This document shows positions 2,129-11,365 of a DNA stretch of 45,363 nucleotides, one piece after another. The DNA lies in the NCBI GenBank assembly GCA_021205205.1, contig JAJPXY010000107.1, forward strand, positions 1 through 45,363, read 5' to 3'. This DNA is from Clostridiales bacterium (GTDB lineage Bacteria; Bacillota; Clostridia; Oscillospirales; Oscillospiraceae). Position 1 is the first letter of the stretch, and each line of letters opens with the position of its first letter. The notes beneath the pieces were generated by a model. It had not been told where the DNA came from. It searched no databases and worked only from the letters and a program-made list of their open reading frames with translations. The translations under genes were made by a program, and so were the position numbers.

Positions 2129-3103
2129 TTGGCCAAAGAATACCTCAACCTCAACGTGACCTTTGCAAATCTGTCACAGGACGGGAGTATTCTGGGGCTG
2201 ACCACCTATGCTGACACACAATTTGAGTTCATACAGACTGGTTGCTCACGCATTCTGCCACTGAAACGCAACCAAATCGTCCTTGATTCGAGCTTTATTC
2301 AACCAGGTAACGTCCGAAGAATGTGCGGGAGACGCAGATTTACTCTTGCTCATGAATGTGCGCACCAGATTTTATTCCAGCTTGAAAAAGACGAGAGTAA
2401 ACCGACCCACAGACGGGCCTATGCTGAACGCAGAGTGCATACGCCAAGATCGCTGAAAACCCATGAAGATTGGAACGAGTGGCAGGCAAACGCCTTGGGC
2501 GCGGCTATCCTTATTGAGGAAACACTGAAAAGACATGAAGCAATTTTGGACAAGATGGCGAACGACAGAGGGTATTGCATTGCGAAAACCTATTATGAGG
2601 TCGTTTCTGGCGAATCTATCGCGGCCAGGCCGGAGATTCAAAAAATGCTGGAGGAGGTGAGCGCCGGGCTATATGCCGGTGTCCTCGTGGTTGACGTGGA
2701 ACGTCTGGCCAGAGGCAACGGCGCAGATCAGGCATACATCAGCCAGGTGTTCCAGTTCTCCGGCCCGAAAATCATCACGCCCACGAAGGTCTATGACCCG
2801 TCCAATGAGTTTGATGAAGAATACTTCGAGTTCGGCCTGTTCATGAGCCGGAGAGAGTACAAAACCATCAACCGACGGCTCATCCGCAGGCGCGACAGCA
2901 GCGCCTCCGAGGGCAAATACCTGGGCAGCATTGCTCTTATGGATACAATCAAAGCCAACCAGGAAAAGAGCCGCTTTTTCTCAACGCTGGCAAACACCTT
3001 CTTTTTCCATAGAAAAAGCGTGCCGGATGCACCGACACGCTTTCCGCGCTCCGTGCGTTACCCGCCGCAGGCGTCCAGCATGGTTTCCGCCAGGATGCCA
3101 TAG
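2129..3103 (+). CDS. ImmA/IrrE-family metallo-endopeptidase (possibly decayed at both ends)
   Basis: HECAH zinc motif in FTLAHECAHQILFQ, typical upstream LNVTFANLSQDGSILGLT. Family-like sequence continues upstream in frame to ~2003 (IILSHSDIENIAAAVIWDFDRFF) without an ATG/GTG/TTG. Confidence 0.75.
   Translation: MAKEYLNLNVTFANLSQDGSILGLTTYADTQFEFIQTGCSRILPLKRNQIVLDSSFIQPGNVRRMCGRRRFTLAHECAHQILFQLEKDESKPTHRRAYAERRVHTPRSLKTHEDWNEWQANALGAAILIEETLKRHEAILDKMANDRGYCIAKTYYEVVSGESIAARPEIQKMLEEVSAGLYAGVLVVDVERLARGNGADQAYISQVFQFSGPKIITPTKVYDPSNEFDEEYFEFGLFMSRREYKTINRRLIRRRDSSASEGKYLGSIALMDTIKANQEKSRFFSTLANTFFFHRKSVPDAPTRFPRSVRYPPQASSMVSARMP
3011..3043 (-). terminator. Intrinsic terminator downstream of spoIVB
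   Basis: AAAGCGTG..CACGCTTT stem followed by a T-run on the minus strand. Confidence 0.7.
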
Positions 3104-4119
3104 CCACGGGTGGGGTCGTTGACGAGAACGTGTGTCACCGCCCCCACCAGCCGTCCATCCTGCAAAATGGGCGAACCGGACATTCCCTGGACGATGCCGC
3201 CGGTGGCGTCCAGCAGGTCGGGGTCCGTCACTTGGAGCAGCAGATTCCGGGTCTCCGAGGCCGCCGCCGGATAAAGCCGCAGAATCTCCACAGAATACTC
3301 CTTGACCTCGTCCCCATCCACGTTGCAGAGGATGGTGGCCTTACCGGTGCTGACCTGGCTCCGTTCCGCCACTGGCAGCGCCTCTCCGTCCAATTCCCCG
3401 CAGAACTGGCCGAACACGCCGCAGTCGGTGTTTTCCGTCAGGCTGCCCAGGTCCTGGGTCAGGTCAAAGGTGCCGTGGAGCTGCCCCGGGTGTCCGCTGC
3501 TCCCCTTCACGGCGCTGGTCACGGTGGCGCTCATAATGCCGCCGGTTTTCAGCGGCATTAACAGGCTGGTATCCACATCGTTGATGCCGTGGCCCAGGGC
3601 GCAGAACCGCCCGGTGGCCGGGTCATACCAGGTGACGGTGCCGATGCCCGCCATGGAGTCCCGCACCCAAGCGCCCAGCTTATAGCTGCCGTCGGCCAGA
3701 CAGGGCGCGGCCTCCGCGGCCACCTCCAGCCGCCGCCCCGCCCGCAGGGCGGTGACGGACAGCGTCTCCCCGCTCTGCTGGCGCAGGATCTCCTCCACCT
3801 GCTCAATGGTGTCCACCTGCTGGCCGTCCAGCTGGGTGATGATGTCCCCCACCTTCAATCCGCTCTCTTTGGCCGGGGAATAACTGCCCTGGGCGGTGCT
3901 GATCTCCTCCAGCCCCACCACCATGACGCCGTGGGAAAACAGCTTGATGCCCACCGTTTTGCCCACCGGCACCAGCATGGTCGGCTCCGCCTGCCCGGAG
4001 CAGCGGACGGCCGGACGCCATCTCCCCCACCCCACGGCGGCCAGCAGGAGCGCCAGCGCCAGAACCATCGCCAGCCCTGCCAGCACGGCGGGGTGCGCCG
4101 TCTGTTTTTCTTCCTTCAT
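3058..4119 (-). CDS. spoIVB: SpoIVB-type peptidase S55 with PDZ domain (stage IV sporulation protein B)
   Basis: N-terminal TM segment, PDZ (AKESGLKVGDIITQLDGQQV), GHGIND and QGMSGSPILQDGRLVGAVTHVLVNDPTRGYGI motifs. Confidence 0.92.
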   Translation of the reverse strand: MKEEKQTAHPAVLAGLAMVLALALLLAAVGWGRWRPAVRCSGQAEPTMLVPVGKTVGIKLFSHGVMVVGLEEISTAQGSYSPAKESGLKVGDIITQLDGQQVDTIEQVEEILRQQSGETLSVTALRAGRRLEVAAEAAPCLADGSYKLGAWVRDSMAGIGTVTWYDPATGRFCALGHGINDVDTSLLMPLKTGGIMSATVTSAVKGSSGHPGQLHGTFDLTQDLGSLTENTDCGVFGQFCGELDGEALPVAERSQVSTGKATILCNVDGDEVKEYSVEILRLYPAAASETRNLLLQVTDPDLLDATGGIVQGMSGSPILQDGRLVGAVTHVLVNDPTRGYGILAETMLDACGG

Positions 4120-4310
4120 TCTCCATCCCTCCATCAGCGGCCTGTTTTGTGGAAAAACGCGCCAGTTCAGGGACGTTTTCCCCCTCACAGGCCAAGTCAC
4201 GCTGCCAGATTACTATTTCTCGCAGAGACGAAAAAACCGCGCCGCCGCTGCCAAAGTCGGGCAACGTTGGGCGCGCGGAACGGTGTCGAAGCTGCGCCGC
4301 TGTGAATGGG

Positions 4311-4454: not shown

Positions 4455-5348
4455 ATGAAACGACTGATGGCACTATTTCTGGCGGTCTGTATGGCACTCT
4501 CGGTCAGCGCCCTGGCCCTGGCCGACGGTACCGGCACGGAAAACAAAGGGTATCTTGTCCTGGGCGAGGACCTGACCAGCCAGGAGCTGGAAACCGTACT
4601 GTCCTTCCTCCAGGTGGACGACATGGACGACTACGTGGTCAGCTACACCACCAACGAGCAGGAGCACGAGGCCTTCGACAGCTATCTCAGCGCCTCGGTG
4701 GTGGGCAGCCGCGCCCTGTCCTCCATCCTGCTGGTCCCCGGCGAGGAGGGAGACGGCATCTCCGTCACCTCCTATAATATCACCTACTGCACGGTGGAGA
4801 TGTACCAGAACGCGCTGATCTCCGCCGGAGTGGAGGACGTGGCCATCTACATCGCCGCGCCCTACGCCGTCTCCGGCACCTGCGCCCTGGTCAGCGCCAT
4901 GAACGCCTACTCCACCCTGACCGGGGAGGAGATCGACCAGGCCAGCGCCGACGCCGCCGTGGACGAGCTGGTGACCACCGGCGAGCTGGGCGACGCCATC
5001 GGCAGCAACGACACCGCCGCCGAGCTGATTGCTCTGCTCAAGCAGCAGCTGCTGGAGCAGGACCTGACCGAGGAGGAGCTTTCCGAGGCCATCGACAACG
5101 CCTGTGAGGAAATGGACGTGACCATCGACGACGACCTGAAGCAGCAAATCATCGACCTGCTGCTGAAACTGAAGGAGACGGACATCGACGTGGACGCCCT
5201 ATCCAAGCAGGCCAGCAATCTCTACAGCAAAATCAGCGAAACCATGGATTCCATGGGTATCACCCGGGAATCGGCGCTGAACTTCTTCCAGAAGGCGCTG
5301 CAATTTGTGCAGAACCTGCTTGGCAGCCTGTTCGGCAGCGGCGAATGA
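4455..5348 (+). CDS. DUF1002-domain secreted protein
   Basis: Signal peptide MKRLMALFLAVCMALSVSALALA; DUF1002-like body (TSQELETVLSFLQVDDMDDYVVSYTTNEQEHEAFDSYL...). Confidence 0.85.
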   Translation: MKRLMALFLAVCMALSVSALALADGTGTENKGYLVLGEDLTSQELETVLSFLQVDDMDDYVVSYTTNEQEHEAFDSYLSASVVGSRALSSILLVPGEEGDGISVTSYNITYCTVEMYQNALISAGVEDVAIYIAAPYAVSGTCALVSAMNAYSTLTGEEIDQASADAAVDELVTTGELGDAIGSNDTAAELIALLKQQLLEQDLTEEELSEAIDNACEEMDVTIDDDLKQQIIDLLLKLKETDIDVDALSKQASNLYSKISETMDSMGITRESALNFFQKALQFVQNLLGSLFGSGE

Positions 5349-5381: not shown

Positions 5382-5412
5382 AAAAAAAGACCAGGCGATT
5401 CAACCTCTCGCC
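5382..5412 (-). terminator. Candidate intrinsic terminator of a minus-strand noncoding transcript
   Basis: On minus: GAC-tc-GGCGA-gaggttgaa-TCGCC-tg-GTC then TTTTTTT. Confidence 0.5.
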
Positions 5413-5916
5413 GAGTCACTTCTGTTCGTTGTCCAAGGGTCTTTACCTCAACTTTTATCAGGGTTCATTCAGGACTATTCACTGCGCCGTCACTGATGGC
5501 TGTTCTGAATTGTTCTTTGGTCTCAGTCCTTTCTTCCGTCGTCTAAGAAATCTTGAGCACACGCTTCATGTCACGCGCCTCCTCTATAGGCGGAATGTGG
5601 ATAGGGACGAACTTACCTGTACATGGGACCGTACCTCCTGCGTTATTTGATTGCGGCTCTAAAAGCAACCCTCATAACACATCATCCTTTCGGAAACGGG
5701 GGTGGTGGATAGGGACGAACTTACTTGTACATGGGACCGTACCTCCTGTGTTACTGAATAGCTGACCTGAAATCATACCACATAACACATCATCCTCTCA
5801 AACGGTCAAGCGGATGGGGCGGAAGGGACATTGCTGCTTGACGGAACAGCTGCCGTTTTCACTGCGTCTTGGGAACCGACCCCTTTCTGTAGTGAAGTTT
5901 GTATCCTCTTTTGGAT
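5388..5916 (-). ncRNA. Candidate ~530-nt noncoding / micro-ORF transcript
   Basis: Strong minus promoter, terminator at the other end, no long ORF, tandem structured modules. Confidence 0.4.
5597..5812. repeat. Tandem duplication of a 108-bp module (2 copies)
   Basis: Block A (44 bp, 1 mismatch) at 5597-5640 and 5705-5748; block B cataacacatcatcct at 5673-5688 and 5781-5796; both offset by 108. Confidence 0.85.
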
Positions 5917-5922
5917 GAATTA

Positions 5923-5951
5923 AGAATACCACAGTTCCGCGCATCTGTCAA
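5923..5951 (-). promoter_or_regulatory. Promoter TTGACA-17-TATTCT for the minus-strand noncoding unit
   Basis: TGTCAA 5946-5951 and AGAATA 5923-5928 on + strand. Confidence 0.65.
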
Positions 5952-6017: not shown

Positions 6018-6620
6018 ATGACAAAAAATATCGTGATGGACATGGGAAATGTGCTGCTGGACTTCGACCCGCAGGTCCCCCTGGACCGGTACTGCTCCAC
6101 CCCGGAAGAAAAGGAGCTGGTGCGCCGGGAGCTGTTTCAGGCTCCGGAGTGGCTGATGGCCGACCAGGGCCTGATCCGGGACTGTGAGCGGTTCGACCAC
6201 ATCAAGGACCGGGTGCCGCGGCAGCACTGGCCCGCGCTGAAAGCCTGCGCGGACAACTGGTGGGTGTGTATGCACAACCCCATCCCCGGCGCGCTGGACT
6301 TCCTCCACGACTGCAAGGCGGCGGGATTCGGGCTGTACATCCTCTCCAACTCCTCCGACCTGTTCTTCACCTACTTCCCGGCCTTCTGCCCCCTGGAGTT
6401 CTTCGACGGGGCGGTGGTCTCCTGCCAGGAGAAGCTGCTGAAACCCGACCCGGAGATCTACCGGCGGCTGCTGGAGCGGTACCGCCTGACGCCGGAGACC
6501 TGTTATTTTGTGGATGACCGACAGGACAACGTGGCGGCGGCTCAGGCCCTGGGCATGGGCGGCCATGTGTTCCGCATGGATTACCCCGCCATCCGCCGGG
6601 AACTGGGGATGCAGCCATGA
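6018..6620 (+). CDS. HAD-superfamily hydrolase (subfamily IA)
   Basis: VMDMGNVLLDFD, LSNSSD, KPDPEIYRRLLER, FVDDRQDNVAAA; GGAGGG RBS upstream. Confidence 0.88.
   Translation: MTKNIVMDMGNVLLDFDPQVPLDRYCSTPEEKELVRRELFQAPEWLMADQGLIRDCERFDHIKDRVPRQHWPALKACADNWWVCMHNPIPGALDFLHDCKAAGFGLYILSNSSDLFFTYFPAFCPLEFFDGAVVSCQEKLLKPDPEIYRRLLERYRLTPETCYFVDDRQDNVAAAQALGMGGHVFRMDYPAIRRELGMQP

Positions 6621-9535: not shown

Positions 9536-11365
<1,830 letters not shown>

Follow-up and report, generated by a model that had tools for sequence, protein, structure and literature searches.

A conserved minus-strand transcription unit of Clostridia carries a tandem array of probably translated mini-ORFs

In the window, which is the whole 45,363-nt stretch of DNA analysed here, two plus-strand genes, one for a DUF1002 protein (ending at 5348; Pfam E 1.5e-61) and one for a HAD-type hydrolase (starting near 6018; Pfam E 4.7e-16), flank a gap. 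This gap is occupied by a minus-strand unit that is very probably a conserved stand-alone unit rather than a chance arrangement. Its transcript, predicted to run for about 535 nt on the minus strand from promoter to terminator, contains five mini-ORFs led by Shine–Dalgarno (SD) sequences. Because these tiny genes carry their own ribosome-binding sites and the family is conserved, ribosomes probably read the unit, which would then be no plain noncoding RNA. We tentatively propose that it belongs to an undescribed family of mini-ORF transcripts that may work by engaging ribosomes.

The two ends of the unit are defined by the following elements.

5923–5951, minus strand: sigma-70-type promoter TTGACA-17-TATTCT, its -10 element extended by a preceding TG, kept in homologues
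5382–5417, minus strand: intrinsic terminator GACTCGGCGA-GAGGTTGAA-TCGCCTGGTC-T7, with a 10-position stem containing one mismatch and the loop GAGGTTGAA

A sequence-only reading of this stretch had proposed a minus-strand promoter and, about 530 bp downstream, a terminator-like hairpin followed by U7, and both hold up. The promoter lies at 5951–5923 and is shared by homologous units, which carry TTGACA-17-TATCCT, TATAGT or TATAAT at the equivalent position; in a promoter scan, 3.5 kb of sequence contained 2 sigma-70-like sites versus 0.6 in shuffles. The hairpin at 5417–5382 is more stable than its shuffles upon folding (z -2.0) and is kept in relatives, whose terminators have the identical loop and a longer, nearly perfect stem. 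A simple scan overlooked the terminator of the window because its stem has one mismatch. As had also been noted, the gap holds no long plausible ORF in the ORF list of the window, though the five SD-led mini-ORFs are present. No same-strand gene lies downstream of the unit within the window, and the next gene is convergent.

The tandem repeat that had been seen between promoter and terminator consists of two 95-nt copies with 84% identity and a spacing of 108 nt, and the mini-ORFs are arranged as follows.

5705–5799, minus strand: repeat unit 1, from repeat comparison
5597–5691, minus strand: repeat unit 2, from repeat comparison
5751–5783, minus strand: mini-ORF MWYDFRSAIQ* (10 codons), SD GAGAGGATG
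5721–5732, minus strand: mini-ORF MYK* (3 codons), SD AGGAGG at 5747–5742
5643–5675, minus strand: mini-ORF MRVAFRAAIK* (10 codons), SD GAAAGGATG
5613–5624, minus strand: mini-ORF MYR* (3 codons), SD AGGAGG at 5639–5634
5543–5569, minus strand: mini-ORF MKRVLKIS* (8 codons), SD GAGGAGG
5416–5436, minus strand: likely sixth mini-ORF, LDNEQK* from a TTG start, with its stop codon at the opening of the terminator stem

Each repeat copy, read along the minus strand, runs from a G(A)AAGGATG-type SD through the 10-codon ORF to AGGAGG, nine further bases and the 3-codon ORF, with the AGGAGG of the tripeptide ORF beginning about 3 nt after the stop of the 10-codon ORF. Five SD-led mini-ORFs in the transcript compare with a mean of 0.18 and a maximum of 3 in dinucleotide shuffles, 0 of 2000 of which reach five. 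In a census of the 45-kb window, 5 of the 7 ORFs of at most 12 codons with an SD-like sequence and ATG fall in this unit, and a search of the own genome that allowed up to 3 mismatches in the SD-tripeptide motif gave 4 sites, none of them outside the two known copies of the unit. Three ORF types recur family-wide, namely the 3-codon MY[KRSN], the 10-codon M[KR][LV]xFKxxIK and the 3'-terminal M(x)LDNKxEQK. The homologues of LDNEQK* are ATG-started, as in (M)MLDNKxEQK*, MVLDFKSEQK* and MKLQIDSEQK*. SD, start and stop are retained in nearly all copies of the unit. In addition, the SD (window 5629–5639 and 5737–5747, and homologues) nearly always lies within GGA-N(4-8)-UCC just 5' of the AUG. By eye, GGAGGU plus UCCAA complements the 16S 3' end (UUGGAUCACCUCC) beyond the anti-SD, and the case for such extended 16S pairing of GGAGGU-N-UCCAA is weakened because many own-genus copies have UCCCA.

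Homologous units emerged from the search of related genomes for which the sequence-only reading had called. The own genome contains a second copy (G000:C29) with two units, encoding MRLNFKSPIK*, MYS*, MRVAFQAPIK*, MCN* and MVLDFKSEQK*. A DNA search of 59 genomes gave matches in 18, all from the own genus (own genome included), which amounts to 18 of the 32 genomes of the genus and counts one short and weak match (G016). Own-genus copies contain varying numbers of repeat units. The repeat spacings in relatives vary by non-multiples of three. In a group of species, a version of about 1.6 kb with its own promoter and terminator sits at a conserved place. This version (L035, L036, L037 and L039 in G017, G028, G021 and G029; also L017, L020 and L030) has a single promoter and terminator, several mini-ORF units and a 3' domain of about 700 nt, which holds repeated modules (GCATTCGCTGAA..CTTCCG); the long version has no Rfam match.

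Beyond the genus, the covariance model R1, built on the repeat, found weak matches in four genomes from three other genera of the family. All four sit in intergenic units that have a promoter and, at the 5' end, a mini-ORF starting MY, and three of the four units end in a hairpin with another short ORF before it. The pattern AAGGA-N(2-10)-GTCCAATGTACA was found in one more genus (g63) and in two more families of the order, and was absent from 245 genomes of the class, of which nearly all lie outside the order, a null result that doubles as a false-positive control for the pattern. In g63, 26 of 61 genomes carry one copy each, with MYK*, MYR* or MYS* in the vicinity of the predicted start of transcription and MMLDNK[TNS]EQ[KEG]* ending at the terminator. 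Promoter, SDs, stops and terminator are conserved between genera, and the neighbour genes of the copies differ both within a genome and between genera. Additionally, a phage contig (L104, IMGVR_UViG_3300031853_001950) carries on its minus strand, at about 11150–11300, a minimal version of about 150 nt that comprises the promoter, MYN*, about 20 bases, MDISL* and the terminator, and nothing more; by eye, the ORFs of the contig resemble genes of nucleotide metabolism, among them dUTPase and anaerobic ribonucleotide reductase. Phage and plasmid records searched by blastn contained no homology to the window unit, the exact patterns GGTCCCATGTACANGTAAG and AGGAGGN{4,7}TCCCATGTACANNTAA had no match in viral contigs, and three further viral matches (L105–L107) lie inside long genes and were set aside as chance.

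Comparison across the family suggests that its mini-ORFs are probably translated. Among 18 distinct 10-codon ORFs, differing codons have a mean BLOSUM62 score of 1.28 versus -0.19 ± 0.47 in column shuffles (0/1000) and a synonymous fraction of 0.28 versus 0.14 (4/1000), the other two frames score negative, and 19 distinct 3' ORFs score 1.12 versus -0.19 (9/1000); because the shuffles preserve column make-up and ignore ancestry, these values are strong hints of coding rather than proof. In line with a coding role, nine-codon versions of the 10-codon ORF exist, a length change in a step of three. Among six orthologues of the window unit, 4 of the 8 variable columns inside mini-ORFs are synonymous and the other four fall in one ORF of one species, and variable columns make up 8 of 138 in mini-ORFs versus 39 of 397 elsewhere, a difference that is not significant in this small set (p 0.17). 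On the other hand, every tripeptide of the MY forms has TAC as codon 2, never TAT, AAG replaces ATG in the 5'-most motif copy of some species, and in some terminal units of the long variant the ATG is missing and the stem is kept. First and last repeat units of L018, L019 and L035 likewise retain the hairpin and the tripeptide ORF, with the ATG of the 10-codon ORF lost. The invariant TAC codon and the loss of ATG from some terminal units indicate that part of the constraint sits on the RNA. The original description as a noncoding unit stands in that a conserved stand-alone minus-strand transcription unit is present, whereas the word noncoding probably does not fit mini-ORFs that vary codon-wise.

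At the RNA level, three local structures were identified.

5747–5789, minus strand: hairpin UGUGUUA/UAACACA around the first 10-codon ORF, with two-sided changes among 28 units
5639–5681, minus strand: hairpin UGUGUUA/UAACGCA around the second 10-codon ORF, with two-sided changes among units
5833–5859, minus strand: 5' module AAAACGGCAGCTGTTCCGTCAAGCAGC, a candidate H-type pseudoknot (CGG/CCG plus GCUG/CAGC) with covariation in the first helix

Across the 28 units, the stem that encloses the 10-codon ORF shows two-sided change in 4 of 6 pairs, a result matched by 0 of 500 shuffles, and the compensatory forms include TGCGTTA/TAACGCA and TATGTTA/TAACATA versus TGTGTTA/TAACACA. This covariation is no by-product of codon constraint, because the best-varying pairs fall outside the ORF. 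The candidate pseudoknot has two covarying pairs in its first helix and a nearly invariant second helix. Two-sided change was found in 13 of 73 predicted pairs of the g63 version and in 4 of 103 pairs in the first half of the 3' domain of the long variant, where the sequence is too conserved for the count to be informative. Folded as a whole, the window transcript gains no stability over its shuffles (z +0.97). A pairing between the starts of ORF1 and ORF2 that RNAalifold predicted in g63 was rejected, its pairs never varying and its duplex reaching -10.6 versus -11.2 kcal/mol in shuffles.

We know of no described kind of RNA that matches the mini-ORF array. The covariance models of Rfam 15, which the sequence-only reading had proposed to run, gave no match for the unit at gathering or lax thresholds and no credible one for its homologues, with tmRNA, RNase P, 6S and SRP RNA, to which the sequence-only reading had not matched the unit by eye, among the families covered; lax-threshold microRNA matches on the terminator hairpin fall far below their cut-offs and were rejected. 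The bar minigenes of phage lambda are reportedly single two-codon ORFs that deplete tRNA. Titles on these minigenes (Hernandez-Sanchez 1998; Ontiveros 1997) stand in the reference list of PMC8012679. Near-minimal ORFs, a strong SD and, on the reading proposed here, translation itself rather than a protein product as the point are common to these and the proposed family, and MYK* and MYR* with AGGAGG each combine a strong SD with a two- or three-codon ORF as bar-type minigenes do; distinct from bar, the present family is a conserved chromosomal array whose ORFs span 3–10 codons and which brings its own promoter, hairpins and terminator. Leader and ribosome-arrest peptides are likewise encoded by short residue-conserved ORFs near hairpins and a terminator and act within the ribosome. 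The window unit has ORFs of this sort in such a setting, but several different ones stand in tandem, and no regulated gene lies downstream in the window. Dual-function regulatory RNAs are structured RNAs that also encode one ORF of tens of codons. Conserved structure together with conserved peptide-encoding ORFs is found here too, in the covarying stem and the coding signature, whereas up to about a dozen mini-ORFs form the bulk of the conserved sequence.

Among larger RNAs, ROOL, GOLLD and OLE are long RNAs that stand alone in bacterial genomes, have no assigned role and also occur in phages (PMC12286853). The present family is similarly a stand-alone RNA family with a phage member, but it differs from them in having no Rfam match, a mini-ORF array and, in the window copy, a weak overall fold; the earlier suggestion that the unit might be one of these RNAs found no support, as their Rfam covariance models detected none. 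One survey of human microbiomes lists 3161 uncurated intergenic RNA candidates (PMC8040213), among which parts of the family may be included; passages of its main text describe no mini-ORF array. A type III antitoxin (ToxI) was considered and rejected, since no same-strand toxin gene follows in the window and the repeats are about 108 nt long and hold ORFs. A limited check of open papers on minigene arrays and mini-ORF RNAs found nothing alike. Taken together, the RNA family of the window unit is apparently undescribed.

How such an array might engage ribosomes can be outlined from its layout. Each strong SD would load a ribosome. A ribosome on the 10-codon ORF would melt the stem, because the ORF lies inside the hairpin, and upon terminating it could re-initiate on the tripeptide ORF, given that about 3 nt separate the stop from the next SD; initiation, termination and re-initiation would then repeat serially down the array. 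Selection on the encoded residues would most simply reflect slow termination or pausing, because peptides of this length would not emerge from the exit tunnel. The transcript would thus act by holding ribosomes, whether for self-protection, for sensing the translational state or for tying up ribosomes or tRNAs, with no protein product, and long variants would add a structured domain. We prefer ribosome engagement because it covers most of the observations, namely the SDs, the near-minimal ORFs, the closeness of SD and stop, the hairpins and the residue conservation; it also covers the last stop at the foot of the terminator, the lack of a downstream regulated gene in the window and the stripped phage version. 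It is a still more speculative, though conceivable, extension that the family represents a new class of RNA device, in which tandem mini-ORFs of 3–10 codons would do the work as ribosomes step through them by termination and re-initiation, translation would be reported or controlled by the state of the array, and the phage copy may act on this process in its host.

The main rival to ribosome engagement is a micropeptide operon, in which cationic peptides of 8–10 residues (MRVAFRAAIK, MKRVLKIS) act after release in signal, antimicrobial or membrane roles and the tripeptide ORFs couple translation. The 10-codon and 3' ORFs are indeed conserved at the residue level and several of the peptides are cationic, but a tripeptide with a variable third residue is an unlikely product and yet the most widespread element, 5'-most in g63; with no linked export or processing gene in the window and a phage version that carries MYN and MDISL alone, we consider such an operon rather unlikely. 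Much the same doubt attaches to a structured noncoding RNA, in which SD, ATG and stop would form a recurring, untranslated motif, GGA-N-UCC-AAUG-NAC, for some protein or RNA to bind. The covarying repeat stem, the pseudoknot candidate, the two-sided pairs of g63, the invariant TAC codon and the stem retained where ATG is lost would all suit this explanation, whereas codon-wise variation, in-frame length steps, strong SDs at canonical spacing and a window transcript no more stable than shuffled sequence argue against it.

The remaining explanations fare far worse. A leader or attenuator of a neighbouring gene, with leader peptides acting at the terminator, would suit the last mini-ORF, which stops at the terminator stem in the manner of attenuators, but is made very improbable by the convergent downstream gene in the window and the differing neighbours of the copies. 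A decayed protein-coding or mobile element, which the sequence-only reading had named as the outcome that would overturn its proposal, could explain repeats and several copies per genome; it is slightly less credible again, given that blastn found no phage or plasmid homology, repeat spacings shift the frame in relatives, SD, start and stop are kept in nearly all copies, and promoter, SDs, stops and terminator are shared between genera. Many AGGA-like motifs in the transcript could also point to a CsrA-sequestering sponge RNA of the CsrB/RsmZ type, but the genome, rated 100% complete, has no PF02599, whereas three control genomes score, and, barring a divergent CsrA, a sponge of this type can hardly be expected here.

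Three-codon genes are invisible to annotation pipelines, yet those described here recur with SD, start and stop across species. If translated, the arrays would constitute a regulatory element built from near-minimal ORFs, and the phage copy suggests a process worth hijacking. If they are RNA motifs instead, the family would still be an uncurated class of Clostridia RNA, whose variants range in length between about 150 nt and 1.6 kb.

As for the wider genomic surroundings, the window also encodes a SpoIVB-type peptidase S55 with a PDZ domain (3058–4200, minus strand), which suggests a spore-forming lineage. In another species, an Rfam pemK RNA element (39.2 bits; L034 6131–6220, minus strand) lies about 6 kb from a homologous unit.
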